A stretch of 38,746 nucleotides of DNA from the NCBI GenBank assembly GCA_021414115.1, contig JAIOPD010000048.1, positions 1 to 38,746 of the forward strand, read 5' to 3'. The notes under the pieces are model-generated. The model did not search any database and was not told the DNA's origin. It worked only from the letters and a program-made list of their open reading frames with translations. Source of the stretch: Planctomycetia bacterium. Its GTDB lineage: Bacteria; Planctomycetota; Planctomycetia; Pirellulales; UBA1268. A program made the translations under genes and the position numbers. Below are positions 822 through 7,734 of the stretch, piece after piece. Each line of letters begins with the position of its first letter. Positions within the stretch are counted from its first letter, which is position 1.

Positions 822-3335
822 TCACGCCCCCCGCGACTTGCGCTTTGCGGCCCGGGATTCATCGCTCCACTTGTAGGGAGGACGCGTCGGCTTTCGGCCC
901 TCGCGGGCTGCGGCGGCGGGCTCGTCGCGGTTCGCGAAATCGTAGGCCCGCAAGACTGTGCCGCGGCTGACCTTCATCTCGCGAGCCAGCCGATCGAACC
1001 CCTCCCCTGCCTTTCTGCGGCGATCCACCTCCACCGCGATTTGCCGATACTTCGGCTCGAACGGCTGGCCGGACTGGCGACGTTGGCGGCGACGGCCATC
1101 GACCCGGCCGGGCGGTCGCTGCCCTGTTTCGTGCAGGTGGAGCGCGTCCCGCACGACCTCCGCCCCGATGCCCAGTGCCCGGGAGATCAGGTCGATGCCA
1201 GCTCCGGCCTCCGCCATCTCGACGATCTGTGGCAGCATCGCCTCATATTTCGGCGTCCGGCGCAGCGGAACCACGACGTCGCGGCGGCCGCGAGGCGCCG
1301 TTCCGAGCATTATCCAACGGTCGGTATTCAGGAACTCCCACATGCCGACCGTTGGATCATCGTCCCCGGCCGCCTTGCCGCGGTCGAGCGCGGCAAGGGC
1401 TGGGATTCCGTCGATCGTGAACTTGGCGACCATCTCCGGCCGCTTTCGTCCCTCGACCTGCCGAGACTCGATCACCACGTCGCCCACGAGGGCTTGCAGC
1501 ACCGGGGCCGCCCGGCCCACGTCCGATAGGAGAACTTCCCGGAGCTGGGTGAGGGCCACCACGACGTCCTGCTCCTTGACGCTCGTGACCGACGGCCGCC
1601 GATTGCGCCGCTGCTCCTCCTTGAGTTCCGCCCGCTTGGCCTCCAGCTGCCGGTTCAACTCCGCCACCTTATTAAAGATGGTGTCGAGTCCACCGGCGTC
1701 TTGGACCTTTTCAAGCCGCTCCGTCAGCCGGCCGACCTGCCGCTGCCGGCTGGCGATCTCCTGCTCGAGCTTCTTTGCGGTGTCCTGCGGCCGCCGGGCG
1801 GCCTCCGCCAGCCGGATATTCACCTCGGCTGTCAGGTCCGTGATGAAGCCTTCGTCGAGGATCTGGGCTGATACGACCTTGAGGACGGCCTCGTCGATGA
1901 TCCGCGCCGACTTGTTGCCCTTGTTGCGGCACCCATGCCCGCCGTGGATCGAGTTGAGGCAGACGAAGCTCTTGTACTTGCCGGTCGATCGGCTCAGAGC
2001 CATCGGCTTGCCGCAACCACCGCACACGGGACGCACGAGCACGGTCGGGTAGACATCCACCCGCCGCCCCGGGTCTTTCCCATCACGACGGAGTTCGGCC
2101 GCGTTCTTCCCGAACCGCATGCTGCCCAAGTTGAGCTTCGCCTTCACGGCGTCGGCCAACTCGTCGGAGAGGATCCGCATCTCCGGGCATTCGCGGGTCA
2201 TCCACGCCTCGCGATCTTTTTGCACAACGTCCACATGGCCGGTGTCGCGGTCGCGGACTTGCATGGTCCTGCGAAAGACCTCCACGCCAACAAGCCGCTC
2301 GCGGGCGTAGAGCTTGCGGATACGGTTGCTTGACCACGTGCGGGCACCGCCGACGTTGTTGTCGTTGAACACCACCGCGACCGCACCGGGACTGCGGTTG
2401 TCGCGGACGATCATCTCGGCGCCGCGGACGATCCACTCGGCCGCCTCGGGATCGATCTCCACCCGCTTCTTGATCGTGTTCTTGCGGGTGAGCTCGGGCT
2501 TGCCTTCGGGCGTCAATACGTCCACCAGTCGATAGCCGAAGCCGGGATGTTGGACGATCTCGCCCCGATTGAAGGCGTCGGTCTGTCCGCGGTGCACCTT
2601 CGCCTTCAGCTGGTCGATGAAGACCTCGTTGAACGAACTCATCATCGCCAGCATGATCTTCGACTGCTGGTTGCTGCTGTCGAAACCGTCGCTGGCACCG
2701 ATGAGCCGCACCTGGGTCGCCTCGACCAGTTCGCCGAGCCGCAGCGACTCGAGAGCATTACGGTTCATCCGACCGAGGTCGTCGATGATGAACCAGGCGA
2801 CGCCAGTATCCGACCGCCGTTCCACCAGCATCTTGGCCACGATGTAGCCGCGGCGGCACGCGAGCGTACCGCTCACGGCGTAGTCGGCGCAGACGTAGTG
2901 CCACGGGATGAAGACGCCGTCGCGGCGGGCCCGCTGCAGCACGTTCATCAGCTGCTGATCGAGCGACCGGGGATTCGACCCTTCGTCGCTGAACCGGACG
3001 TAGCCGAGGCCGATGGCATCCCATACCCGCCGCAGGCCGGCCGGATCAAAGATGTCCATCGACTGGGTGCGGAACCGACGCTCGAAGTCGTCGGCCATCG
3101 CCTCCACGACCGCGTCAGTGACGTTCGGCACCGCGGGCGTGCCGGCCAGTTCCGGCCAGAGCCGGGTCTGGGTCTCGAGATAGGTGCGGGCCAGCGCCAG
3201 CAGGCTGGGCCGCGCGGTCAAACCAAAGTCATCGCCGCGGAGCCGGCCGCGGCCGTGTCGATATCCATTCGAATTGTCAGAGGAACCAAACGAGCCATGC
3301 CCGGCGTCGCCGGGACCTGAAGTAATGTCAAACAT
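822..3335 (-). CDS. Large serine recombinase (resolvase/integrase type)
   Basis: Predicted site-specific DNA recombinase of 837 residues. In order it has an N-terminal extension of about 105 residues without a recognised domain; a resolvase-type catalytic domain with YVRFS (likely nucleophile Ser116), SLDQQ and DLGRMNR (Arg189/Arg192); a recombinase domain; a zinc ribbon with Cys438, Cys441, Cys459 and Cys469; a coiled coil at about 518-578; and two helix-turn-helix-like stretches near the C-terminus. The ATG at 3335 was chosen because GAGGA lies 8 nt before it; a GTG at 3371 and ATGs at 3360 and 3351 are in-frame alternatives. Size and domain order match large serine integrases of mobile elements. 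The N-terminal extension and extra C-terminal HTH region are unusual. It probably mobilised or still mobilises this accessory stretch, but no attachment pair was defined. Confidence 0.9.
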   Translation of the reverse strand: MFDITSGPGDAGHGSFGSSDNSNGYRHGRGRLRGDDFGLTARPSLLALARTYLETQTRLWPELAGTPAVPNVTDAVVEAMADDFERRFRTQSMDIFDPAGLRRVWDAIGLGYVRFSDEGSNPRSLDQQLMNVLQRARRDGVFIPWHYVCADYAVSGTLACRRGYIVAKMLVERRSDTGVAWFIIDDLGRMNRNALESLRLGELVEATQVRLIGASDGFDSSNQQSKIMLAMMSSFNEVFIDQLKAKVHRGQTDAFNRGEIVQHPGFGYRLVDVLTPEGKPELTRKNTIKKRVEIDPEAAEWIVRGAEMIVRDNRSPGAVAVVFNDNNVGGARTWSSNRIRKLYARERLVGVEVFRRTMQVRDRDTGHVDVVQKDREAWMTRECPEMRILSDELADAVKAKLNLGSMRFGKNAAELRRDGKDPGRRVDVYPTVLVRPVCGGCGKPMALSRSTGKYKSFVCLNSIHGGHGCRNKGNKSARIIDEAVLKVVSAQILDEGFITDLTAEVNIRLAEAARRPQDTAKKLEQEIASRQRQVGRLTERLEKVQDAGGLDTIFNKVAELNRQLEAKRAELKEEQRRNRRPSVTSVKEQDVVVALTQLREVLLSDVGRAAPVLQALVGDVVIESRQVEGRKRPEMVAKFTIDGIPALAALDRGKAAGDDDPTVGMWEFLNTDRWIMLGTAPRGRRDVVVPLRRTPKYEAMLPQIVEMAEAGAGIDLISRALGIGAEVVRDALHLHETGQRPPGRVDGRRRQRRQSGQPFEPKYRQIAVEVDRRRKAGEGFDRLAREMKVSRGTVLRAYDFANRDEPAAAAREGRKPTRPPYKWSDESRAAKRKSRGA

Positions 3336-3657
3336 TGGAGAAATCCTCATGGCGACCATGAAAGTGGTCACCGAGGGGTTCCTCCGTCATCCGCCTGCCG
3401 GTCAGAGCCCGATGGGCCCGAACGCCAGCCGGATGGCCGCCGCTTGATCGCGAACCGCCCCAGCTCGGCCGCCGTGAAATGCACGTACGGCCCGAGAATC
3501 AGGGCGATTTTCGACAAATGGTACGGCCTCGTGCACAATACTGAGCAGCCGGCCGCTGCTACTTGGAGCGGTCCATCGCCACGTTGTGACAGCCGATTTC
3601 ACTGCTGTTTTCGAATCGGCAGAGATGGCGACATGCTGGCCCTCCGGGAGAGCAGCG
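3336..3657. other. Gap between recombinase and toxin-antitoxin genes
   Basis: No convincing gene is visible. Short open frames on both strands lack recognisable motifs and ribosome binding sites. The position directly upstream of a large serine recombinase is where an attachment site could lie, but no clear core or flanking inverted repeats could be picked out by eye. Confidence 0.4.
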
Positions 3658-3936
3658 ATGAATGCCGCCGGCGAGCAGATTTTGATGTCGAAAATCCGCA
3701 CGCTGTCACCGCAGCAGGTGTCCGAGGTTGAAGATTTCGTGGAGTTCCTCACCGCCAAGGCGAGGAAGCGGACCGCGTTGGATCGGCTGCTGGCCATCGC
3801 GCCTGCACTCGAAGCGGCCGGCGTGGCACCGATGAGCGAAGATGAGATCGCCGCTGAGATCAAGGCTGCGCGGGCAGAACGCCGGGCGCGGCCCCCCTCT
3901 TCCATCAGCAAAGGATCGGATGCGGATCGTTCTTGA
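3658..3936 (+). CDS. Antitoxin of PIN-type toxin-antitoxin pair
   Basis: A 92-residue protein directly upstream of a PIN toxin and overlapping it by 17 bp, the usual order for an antitoxin. The ATG at 3658 is preceded by GGGAG at a suitable distance. The middle part (LSPQQVSEVEDFVEFLTAKARKR) resembles the short DUF2281/VapB-like antitoxin helix that begins with a phrase such as 'LPPEKLAEVEDFVEFL'. The C-terminal part is charged and Ala/Arg-rich, as expected for the toxin-binding tail. Its inferred job is to neutralise the PIN nuclease and repress the pair's own promoter. Assignment rests on gene context plus this weak motif. Confidence 0.7.
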   Translation: MNAAGEQILMSKIRTLSPQQVSEVEDFVEFLTAKARKRTALDRLLAIAPALEAAGVAPMSEDEIAAEIKAARAERRARPPSSISKGSDADRS

Positions 3937-4339
3937 CACCAATGTGGTTCTATCGGCCCTGCTGTGGCGCGGCGCACCGCACGAGTTGCTGGTCACCATC
4001 GGCCAGCGATCCAACATTCACCTCTACAGCAGTTCGGCGCTGCTCGAAGAACTGGCCGATGTGCTCGCGCGGCCATCAGCGAGCAAGCGGCTGGCTTTGA
4101 TCAACCGATCAGCTCACGATGTGCTGGCTGATTATGTCGAGTTGGTCGAGATGACCAGCGTACCGCGGGTGGTTGGAGGCGATATCGATGACGATCAGGT
4201 CATTGCCGCTGCTGTCGCGGCCCGCGCCGATCTTCTTGTCTCGGGGGATCGCAAGCATCTCCTTCCCCTGAACAACCATCAGGGCATCGATATCGTCGAT
4301 GCGGTTGAGTCACTTCGACGAATCACAGCGGGCACATGA
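3920..4339 (+). CDS. PIN-domain toxin (putative endoribonuclease)
   Basis: A 139-residue single-domain PIN protein of the 'putative toxin component, PIN family' (COG1569-like) group. The start MRIVLDTNVVLSALLW carries the first acidic residue (Asp6). The other acidic positions expected for the Mg2+ site are visible: Glu43/Glu44, Asp90-Asp92 in GDIDDDQVIAAA, and Asp110 in VSGDRKHLL. PIN toxins typically cleave RNA and stop translation when the antitoxin is degraded. Start ATG 3920 lies inside the end of the antitoxin gene, so the two are probably translationally coupled. All key residues appear intact, so the pair is likely functional. Confidence 0.88.
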   Translation: MRIVLDTNVVLSALLWRGAPHELLVTIGQRSNIHLYSSSALLEELADVLARPSASKRLALINRSAHDVLADYVELVEMTSVPRVVGGDIDDDQVIAAAVAARADLLVSGDRKHLLPLNNHQGIDIVDAVESLRRITAGT

Positions 4340-4974: not shown

Positions 4975-5014
4975 CAGATCTCTCGATGAAACGGCGTCGA
5001 GCGGCCCCGACCGC

Positions 5015-5488
5015 TCATGCTGCAGCGACACAATCCCGCGTCATGTCCGCGACCACGAGATTCACGGCGTCGACGACCGGCATGCATGGAAAATACAGGT
5101 CGACACCGAGTTGCCGGGCCCACCGTTCCTCGGCACCGGTGTCGTCGCCGCCGCATACGACCAACAGGCACGCGCACCGGCCGGCATGGCGAGCGACGAG
5201 CCTCATGGCGTCGCGCAGAACCGCACCGAACAGGTACCGAAGGTCGACCAACACCAGGTGATGATCGTCGGCGACCGCCGATGAGGGGGCGTCGCACCAG
5301 TCCCGGGCGTCGCAGCGGAAGTGCCGGTCTTGAGCGGAGGCCAGCCGGAGTTGGCCGCGCGCACGGCCGTCGCCCGTGATGACCAGACAGTTCAGCGGCG
5401 GCACCGGTTGAGGGAATCTCCTCGGCACCGACGTGCTGCGCCGCGGCCGCACTTCTTCGGACGTGAGCCCCACTGCTTTGACGATCAC
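5015..5488 (-). CDS. Receiver-like hypothetical protein
   Basis: A 157-residue protein. The GTG at 5488 was chosen because a GAGG-type site lies upstream; GTG 5518 is an alternative. The segment LVITGDGRARGQL...HLVLVDLRYL...LLVVCGGDD...WARQLGVDLYFP has the alternating hydrophobic strands and helices of a response-regulator receiver, with the DLR aspartate roughly where a phospho-acceptor would sit. Other conserved acidic and Lys positions are not evident, so it may be a degenerate receiver. No kinase or DNA-binding domain is attached. A structured repeat element lies 129 nt upstream of the start. Function is not known; the fold assignment is tentative. Confidence 0.55.
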   Translation of the reverse strand: MIVKAVGLTSEEVRPRRSTSVPRRFPQPVPPLNCLVITGDGRARGQLRLASAQDRHFRCDARDWCDAPSSAVADDHHLVLVDLRYLFGAVLRDAMRLVARHAGRCACLLVVCGGDDTGAEERWARQLGVDLYFPCMPVVDAVNLVVADMTRDCVAAA

Positions 5489-5616
5489 GATGGCACCTCG
5501 CCTCGCGCAGGGCTGCACGCTGATGCGGGCTGCACCCCGTATGGATACCCGCCGGCATCATGCGCGGCGCACCAGGAAAGGCCATTCATCAGCGGGAGGG
5601 CGGCTTCACCCACTCG

Positions 5617-5680
5617 CGGCGGCCTACGCGGTGCCGGAACTCTGGAAAGAGCCAGAGGGACCAGCAACTCGTCTTCCGGC
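5617..5680 (-). repeat. Structured 64-nt repeat, copy A
   Basis: Read on the minus strand this begins gccggaagacgagttgctgg and ends in gcgtaggccg plus three bases. An outer helix GCCGG/CCGGC encloses an inner hairpin CTCTGG-CTCTTT-CCAGAG (minus strand; 5645-5640 with 5657-5652 on the plus scale). Copy B at 6087-6150 has the same length and the same fold. It lies 129 nt upstream of the GTG of the receiver-like gene, in the same orientation. Confidence 0.75.
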
Positions 5681-6086
5681 GTCGTCAGCCCACGTGCCCG
5701 TGCAACGAATCCGAGCGCACGCTCACGTCGGCCAACAGAACCTTCTGCGTCGCTGCCCGCGAAGGCAAGGGAGGCCCGGTTCACCGCCGCCGTGGCCTCA
5801 GCGCCGGCGGTGAGCGTCCCGGTGGACACCGTCGTATTCCTCCGGCTGCGCGTGTTTGCCGCGAACAGGCCGGCGTTCAGCCCGACGTGACGCCGATCCA
5901 TGCGGCACGACACGGCACGCATGACGTCGCAGATCAGGTGTCCGGATGGCCATGCGCGGCACAACGCCGGGAGTAAAGGCTTCATCTTCGGGTCGCGATT
6001 GCCCGCCGCGGTCCGCCGCGACATGGTTCAGCAAGCCGAGGCGGTCATGAGAGCCACAAGCTCGCATGCACGTCATGGTCTTGCAT
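5681..6086. other. No gene recognised between the two repeat copies
   Basis: This stretch separates the divergently pointing repeat copies. A long open frame exists on the minus strand (to about 6024), but its translation is compositionally odd, has no motif and runs straight through copy A, so it is not accepted as a gene. No promoter could be assigned with confidence. Confidence 0.4.
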
Positions 6087-6150
6087 GCCGGAAGACGAGT
6101 TGCTGGGTTCTTCGCCTCTCTGCGAAGCCCCGGCGCAGCGTAGGCCGACG
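6087..6150 (+). repeat. Structured 64-nt repeat, copy B
   Basis: Begins with the same 20 bases as copy A and ends at gcgtaggccgacg. The inner hairpin is CTTCGC (6110-6115), loop CTCTCT (6116-6121), GCGAAG (6122-6127). Compared with copy A, three base pairs of this stem differ on both arms so that pairing is kept, while the outer GCCGG/CCGGC helix is unchanged. It lies 120 nt upstream of the ATG of the PEP-CTERM gene at 6271, in the same orientation. Confidence 0.75.
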
Positions 6151-6270
6151 TGGGTGGACACGGAAGCGTTTCCCCACTGCGGTTTTGTGACTGCGCCGGA
6201 ATGCACGTCGGCGCACCTGTGGGTGCAGTGGATGCCGCCTCTGACCTCCCGAAAAAGAGGATTGGCTACG

Positions 6271-7734
6271 ATGCGCAGCATTCGACTTGCCTGGACGGGC
6301 GTCGCCGCGATTACGGTCGCTGTCACGCTCGGCCGGTGCGTGCAGGCCGGGAACGTACTCTCCAATTTCAATGTGAGCGACGAGGGTTGGACGGTTACCA
6401 GCGACGTGCTGGTCGCCCCCCAGGTGCCGTGGACGTGGACTCCCGGACCGAGCGTCAACCAAGGGGGCTGGCAGGCGTGGCGAGGCAACGACGCGACCGG
6501 CTCGGGCACACATTTGGTGAGCCCGTGCCTCGAGGTCGACAACGTCGATGGCAGCTCTGTCCGAATGGACATCCGCCACCGGTTTGATTTCAGCGGTACG
6601 GCCAGCAACCCGCTGCTCGCGCTCGGGCAGGTGCAGGACAGCATCAACGATGGCCCCTGGCAGGGGATTCGCACGAGGGGGTTCCTGGCGACATCGGAGA
6701 AGATTCCGCCGCTGGCTACGAATCCCCCTACGCCGTTTCCTGCGACGACCAACGTGCCGGCCGGCATCGCTCTGGCCGGCATCGCCACGGTGGTTGGGGT
6801 CGGCTGGTGTGCGCGGCGGCGACGTCAGGTTGTACGACTTGCCGCCCGATCGTTCGCCTGCACGGCGGTGGTCGCCGGCCTCGTCGTGGGCCTCGCCCTT
6901 GCCCTGGCTGGCCGGGAGGCAAGGGCGGAACCCATCCAGACGATCACCTGGGATTTCAATGTCGAGTCGCAGGCGACCCAATGGACGGCGATCAACACCT
7001 ACGCCACGAGTCCTGTGCCGCAAAATCCGAAATGGACCTGGACTGCCGGCTCGGGTTCCGTGCCGGGCACATGGCAGGTCGACTCGCTCGGGGTCACGAG
7101 TCCGAACTCGAAGTTTGGCAACTTTCTCACGAGCCAGTTGATTCAGCTGAGTCCCGACCTGCCGGCCGACAAATTCACGTTCAACATCGCGCACCGATTC
7201 CGGATGCCGACCGATGGCCTGATCGTGAACGGCGTGCAACTGCCTGTCGTCGCCGGGCAGTTCGAGTACAGCCTCGATGGCGCGTCGTATTTGCCGGTCT
7301 TCAAGCCCGATTGGATCGCTTCGGGCACGATTTCTCCGATCCTCGCGCCCTACGTGCAGTCGTCGACGTGGGCGGTTCCGCAGTTCGTGCCCGGGGTCGC
7401 CCCAGTGGTGAGCCTGCCTCCGCTGGTCGACGGCGGTGCCTCATTCACGGGTGTTTCGCAGGGCCGGAACTCGGGCTGGTTCGTCGCCAGCCAGGCCTTC
7501 GAAGTGGATATTCCTGGCTTGACCACGACGATCCAGTTCCGGTTTACGAAAATGGACCTGGCGACCAACTGCGGCCTCGACGCCGGCTGGGACCTCCGAT
7601 TCGCTCAGGTCGATCTCATCCTGGCCCCGGAGCCGAGCAGCGTCACGATCGCCGCAGCAGGCGGCGTGATGGCGGCCGCCGCCATGCTGCGGTACCGCTA
7701 CCAGCGGCTTTCGAGGCCGAGTGTCAGGCCGTGA
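6271..7734 (+). CDS. Double PEP-CTERM-type exported protein, two units in one frame
   Basis: A 487-residue protein made of two similar precursor-like units. Unit 1: signal peptide (1 to about 27), a domain beginning NFNVSDEGWT with WTWTPG, then at about 160-185 a VPAG start, hydrophobic stretch and RRRR, which looks like a degenerate sorting anchor. Unit 2: at about 189-220 a second hydrophobic signal-like segment ending AGREARA, a domain beginning DFNVESQATQWT with WTWTAG, and a terminal PEP-CTERM anchor (PEPSS, hydrophobic helix, Arg-rich end). PEP-CTERM tails are recognised by exosortase, which is not encoded here. ATG 6271 is preceded by AGAGG. No start codon with a ribosome site separates the units. 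The 3' end overlaps the convergent BBP7 gene by 37 bp. Confidence 0.8.
   Translation: MRSIRLAWTGVAAITVAVTLGRCVQAGNVLSNFNVSDEGWTVTSDVLVAPQVPWTWTPGPSVNQGGWQAWRGNDATGSGTHLVSPCLEVDNVDGSSVRMDIRHRFDFSGTASNPLLALGQVQDSINDGPWQGIRTRGFLATSEKIPPLATNPPTPFPATTNVPAGIALAGIATVVGVGWCARRRRQVVRLAARSFACTAVVAGLVVGLALALAGREARAEPIQTITWDFNVESQATQWTAINTYATSPVPQNPKWTWTAGSGSVPGTWQVDSLGVTSPNSKFGNFLTSQLIQLSPDLPADKFTFNIAHRFRMPTDGLIVNGVQLPVVAGQFEYSLDGASYLPVFKPDWIASGTISPILAPYVQSSTWAVPQFVPGVAPVVSLPPLVDGGASFTGVSQGRNSGWFVASQAFEVDIPGLTTTIQFRFTKMDLATNCGLDAGWDLRFAQVDLILAPEPSSVTIAAAGGVMAAAAMLRYRYQRLSRPSVRP

Follow-up and report, generated by a model that had tools for sequence, protein, structure and literature searches.

A covarying hairpin element before planctomycete genes, probably the sensor of a riboswitch-like attenuation leader

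Introduction

The window analysed here, a 38,746-nucleotide stretch of planctomycete DNA (contig JAIOPD010000048.1), holds two similar structured stretches that diverge from each other, each pointing toward a gene, and it raises the question of whether these are leader RNAs that regulate the genes behind them or copies of a repeat. A first-pass annotation, made from the window alone, had proposed an undescribed cis-regulatory RNA or a REP-like element under structural selection.

Results

The conserved rod of copy a lies at 6088..6150 on the plus strand (71.4 bits with covariance model R3) and that of copy b, divergent to it, at 5617..5679 on the minus strand (59.6 bits). As an inverted pair, 5610-5680 and 6087-6157 (71 nt) align without gaps and are 76% complementary; with the rods in register, 6088-6150 (+) and 5617-5679 (-) are identical at 48 of 63 positions. 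The description of two ungapped copies with a common first 20 bases is thereby borne out, these bases beginning at 6087 in copy a and at 5680 in copy b, as is that of compensatory changes in the inner 6-bp stem, where three of the six pairs are altered on both arms and pairing stays intact. The outer helix had been misassigned as GCCGG/CCGGC: in the family the partner of CCGGC is GCTGG (columns 15-19), and it is the terminal CCG that faces the CGG of the 5' end. An overlapping second hairpin beside the rod had also been missed. Because each window copy folded singly does no better than its shuffles (z -0.12 and -0.58), evidence for structure beyond chance has to come from comparison across a family.

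The likely start codons stand 120 nt past rod a (ATG 6271) and 128 nt past rod b (GTG 5488, minus strand), in agreement with the 120-129 nt, in gene orientation, given by the first-pass annotation. The gene behind copy a (6271..7734, plus strand) encodes an exported protein with the end APEPSS...RYRYQRLSRPS, which we read by eye as PEP-CTERM type; at E<=0.1 neither Pfam nor NCBIfam has a match to it. By eye, this ORF also looks like two PEP-CTERM-type proteins fused in frame: an inner hydrophobic stretch ends in ARRRR, and another signal-like stretch comes after it. Behind copy b, a small protein with a GTG start (5015..5488, minus strand) likewise lacks a Pfam or NCBIfam match, and its homologue (32% identity) sits behind an element in another genome, so that both window copies are in leader position. 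Elsewhere in the window, a large serine recombinase with Resolvase, Recombinase and zinc-ribbon domains (822-3371, minus strand) suggests a mobile element at the left, and a DUF2281 protein and, directly behind it in order, a PIN-domain protein (3586-4339, plus strand) are possibly a VapBC-like toxin-antitoxin pair.

A search of the window's own genome gave two further clear copies, and models were built from these four (R1), from 60 sequences (R2) and from 120 sequences (R3). With the own genome included in each count, R1 has matches (E<=0.1) in 34 of 79 genomes, R2 in 43 of 72 genomes of the same family and in 76 of 396 sampled genomes of the order, and R3 in 13 of 392 sampled genomes of the phylum; the matches of the order and phylum searches span several families. 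The window pair are thus members of a planctomycete RNA family. Outside the phylum, R3 has no match in 398 sampled genomes of the phylum of a Colwellia genome under strict filters and without a positive control there, and of two non-planctomycete genomes tried, Halorubrum gave one weak match (E 7.5e-4). An exact pattern in named genomes occurs in 39 stretches, 36 with planctomycete titles and one each from a 'bacterium', Halorubrum and Colwellia; the last two are probably chance.

We analysed 147 elements: 63 from the R1 set (matches down to E 2.4e-5, weaker ones left out), 60 from the R2 family and order searches, among the matches listed, and 24 from the R3 phylum set, which leaves out one weak match (G733). 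A sequence rule divides them into class I (GACG with GTAGGCC; 35 elements, both window copies included), class II (other GACG; 40) and class III (the rest; 72), the last mostly from families other than that of the window genome. At L156/L183/L191, L192, L179 and L238, elements stand in groups of three, each confined to about 2-11 kb of a single contig.

The rod consists, in order, of P1 (CGG/CCG), a 3x3 loop (ANG/ARG), P2 (ACG/CGT or ACT/AGT), a second loop, P3 (GCTGG/CCGGC in copy a) and a variable P4 with a variable loop. Covariation in the family is strong. In 110 distinct sequences, pairing holds in 90.2% of cells, and two-sided changes affect 310 cells where shuffles give 100.9. The covariation score of 0.440 compares with 0.181 for shuffles and with no more than 0.121 once the pairing is slid; 4 of 500 shuffles attained the observed number of pairs with two-sided changes. 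The last pair of P2 switches between G-C (54 sequences) and U-A (53). Two of the drawn pairs are poor, columns 17-68 being unpaired in 71 of 110 sequences and 25-57 in 60. Both alignments (A5 and A8) were made by fitting to the model, and because the sequences are related, neither covariation nor element counts are independent events. When the 60 distinct early elements were aligned with MAFFT, the RNAalifold consensus contained P1 and P2 and a portion of P3, and lacked P4.

P1 itself is near-invariant: none of its three pairs has a two-sided change among the 110 sequences, and an earlier alignment had one such pair, in one sequence. Since its pairs hardly vary, the case for P1 rests on conservation and on overlap with a terminator. 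The unpaired bases between P1 and P2 are the most conserved (A5 in 103, G7 in 108, A78 in 107 and G80 in 106 of 110), and the terminal loop (columns 33-39) has no conserved sequence in these sequences. Class I elements carry a GG-N10-GC spacing (GGAAGACGAGTTGC) reminiscent of a sigma-54 promoter; we rejected this candidate, since class II has GGAAGACGAGTCGA and the stems covary.

Under a stricter rule applied to the 145 elements with sufficient sequence, 110 have an intrinsic terminator whose 5' arm lies in the last strand of the rod, against about 2.2 expected with shuffled downstream DNA and none in control DNA 150 nt further on (141 elements with >300 nt downstream). This rule superseded a first, looser one, by which 36 of 63 elements had terminators and 32 of these overlapped the rod (4.7 and 2.3 in shuffles). 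The T-tract begins 32-41 nt past the element in 109 of the 110 and at 26 nt in the other, with 105 falling at 34-41 nt. Folded alone, the rod forms P1 in 143 of 143 elements (147 minus two with short downstream DNA and two with incompletely pairing P1 bases); once the downstream hairpin is included, imposing P1 carries a mean penalty of 3, 7 and 8 kcal/mol in classes I, II and III. A predicted expression platform mutually exclusive with the sensor is present in 110 of 145 elements and, by that rule, at neither window copy. In copy a, the second hairpin (6142..6186, plus strand) excludes P1, as its 5' arm begins inside the 3' strand of the rod (AGGCCG), and it ends in TTTT at 6183-6186, a weak, terminator-like feature that meets the looser rule and fails the stricter one. 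That of copy b (5579..5625, minus strand) overlaps the 3' strand of P1, is followed by only TTT and counts as a terminator under neither rule.

The overlap differs by class, with 9 of 35 elements in class I, 32 of 40 in class II and 69 of 70 in class III. In class I the U-tract is mostly lost and the second hairpin kept, so that control may be weaker there or of another kind. One reading, to which we give somewhat less than an even chance, is that the class I element is a relic, or acts on translation or mRNA stability instead of termination; the low count under the stricter rule fits it, as does a further GC-rich hairpin in many class I leaders. Yet both structures persist in this class, with mean z -2.28 for the rod and -2.87 for the second hairpin, 28 of 34 second hairpins lie below z -1.5 against 4 in the control, and nine copies retain the full terminator. 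Second hairpins in classes II and III have mean z -4.94 and -7.13, the control lying at -0.21 to -0.01. Many class I leaders have a third hairpin, GCGCCG...CGGCGC, after the second (in the window at about 6190-6240), and many have a GTGCAGCGGATGCCGC-like stretch there as well.

Upstream, a -10-like box within one mismatch of TATAAT occurs at -85..-40 in 50 of 146 elements, where shuffles give 7.8 and a far-upstream control 2 of 141; by the same rule it was not found there in the other 96. The boxes cluster 50-80 nt upstream of the rod, and their positions place the probable transcript start tens of bases 5' of it. The 55 nt upstream of the rod have folds that are modestly more stable than those of shuffles (mean z -2.44, -1.27 and -1.29 in classes I, II and III).

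Downstream ORFs called by a simple rule gave 117 distinct proteins, six elements having no ORF; 105 of the 117 were scanned, plus 22 more, 21 of them from the phylum set and one repeated. The genes are mostly MpsC/DUF2294, csrA and PEP-CTERM-type. Pfam MpsC (DUF2294) was matched by 18 of 59, 14 of 46 and 4 of 22 proteins in three scan sets; in 59 scanned proteins, Pfam PEP-CTERM had 12 matches and the NCBIfam XDD4 exosortase-dependent model 11, with other PEP-CTERM models besides. BON/OsmY, response regulators, Hsp20, YflT, KaiC, a sigma factor, transglycosylase-associated proteins, DUF892 and CsrA occur one to three times each, some of which we call stress-type as a reading of family names, and many of the scanned proteins have no family match.

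Placement relative to these genes is not random. In the span -1500..+3000 around each of the 147 elements, 41 have a csrA-like ORF (one gene may count for neighbouring elements), which is downstream on the same strand in every case. MpsC-like matches downstream are on the same strand in 75 cases and on the other in 6, and upstream on the other strand in 48 and on the same in 9; inspection of 25 rows showed the other-strand matches to be real MpsC-like genes, which mostly lie upstream in divergent orientation. Forty MpsC domain matches start 72-258 nt downstream of elements. An MpsC domain follows within 400 nt in 41 elements, a divergent one precedes within 900 nt in 44 and 27 have both; with divergent MpsC in 44 of 147 loci (e.g. 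L151 and L162), the leader often stands between two MpsC-family genes. As judged from sequence, the elements lie in the 5' leaders of genes, on the same strand.

This placement bears on two other readings. A gene for a short trans-acting RNA that merely sits before other genes is improbable: promoter-like box, hairpins and terminator do form one unit, but the csrA-like matches are always downstream on the same strand, and with T-tracts mostly 34-41 nt past the element and MpsC domains starting from 72 nt, little room is left for a second promoter. The REP-like or other mobile repeat is contradicted as it stands, and we consider it very improbable. Genomes do carry several copies, and REPs are reported in Planctomycetes (PMC3733652); like the REP/GTAG palindromes described there, the element is a short GC-rich hairpin in several copies, from which it differs in low copy number, leader position and RNA covariation. 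In the own genome of 4.35 Mb, R3 finds eight places, 150 having been scored out of 7516 first-look candidates; the elements keep a fixed side and strand in front of genes, and elements with covarying stems and a terminator partner recur in several families of the phylum. Genome copies placed at random and a stem without covariation had been named as what would speak against a selected leader, and neither was found. The cis-regulatory leader RNA under structural selection is instead upheld by covariation, same-strand placement before genes, the -10-like box and the overlapping terminator.

Discussion

Our results, namely the conserved rod, the covariation, the terminator overlap and the placement seen in the sequence, point to a model whereby the element is, with good probability, the sensor part of a riboswitch-like transcription-attenuation leader. 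We infer the switching, its direction and the existence of a signal as follows. Transcription would start about 40-70 nt before the rod, as the -10-like boxes suggest, and the rod would fold first. Its last strand, (A/G)AGCCG or (A/G)GGCCG, could then either pair with the 5' CGG to close P1 or form the opening arm of the terminator, never both. Unaided, the terminator would win and the gene would be off; a putative small molecule or protein binding the conserved loop beside P1 would hold P1, the terminator could not form and the gene would be on.

CsrA usually binds in a terminal loop. A protein signal is possible if rather doubtful: an antiterminator might hold the rod, or CsrA might bind to GGA at the rod foot and so favour termination, in a feedback on csrA. 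The GGA at columns 3-5 (103 of 110 sequences; GGATG in 36), together with the csrA-like ORFs downstream of 41 of 147 elements, makes CsrA one candidate signal; however, two of the three GGA bases lie inside P1 and not in a terminal loop, and the terminal loops vary.

Compared with known systems, the attenuation leader proposed here most resembles riboswitches with an intrinsic-terminator platform, in being a conserved structured leader whose P1 3' strand is shared with the terminator; unlike them, it is one rod with small internal loops, no junction and no Rfam match in the sources scanned. The RAT of BglG/LicT and the ANTAR targets are hairpins that exclude an overlapping terminator in a protein-dependent manner and have conserved terminal-loop sequence. 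The element likewise excludes an overlapping terminator, but its terminal loop is variable, and its rod is about twice as long as the RAT. No Rfam 15 covariance model matches an element in the 16 sources, which were scanned at E<=5 for the window (5000-7000) and at E<=1 for 15 further loci; the window scan gave two weak sub-threshold matches, at 6427-6511 and 6064-6088, the latter (minus strand) to asX4 at 12 bits and touching the first base of copy a. Integron attC, c-di-GMP aptamers and T-box were considered and set aside; the elements have no Rfam match in these scans. The nearest candidate in print, compared by its table entry, is the Rhodopirellula-1 motif (Weinberg et al. 2010), which Table 1 of PMC2864571 lists as RNA '?', cis-regulatory 'y' and switch '?', in Proteobacteria and Planctomycetes, with no Rfam accession. 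That entry includes Proteobacteria, whereas R3 has no match in the 398 genomes of Colwellia's phylum, a weak negative.

We speculate, with less than even confidence, that the elements form a new riboswitch class in several planctomycete families, through which one putative signal acts by antitermination on MpsC/DUF2294, CsrA, stress-type and exosortase-dependent surface-protein genes jointly. The strong terminators of class III offer a ready read-through assay for a ligand or protein. If the proposal is true, a phylum with little-known gene regulation would have an orphan class of riboswitch or attenuator that links csrA, MpsC, stress-type and surface-protein genes.
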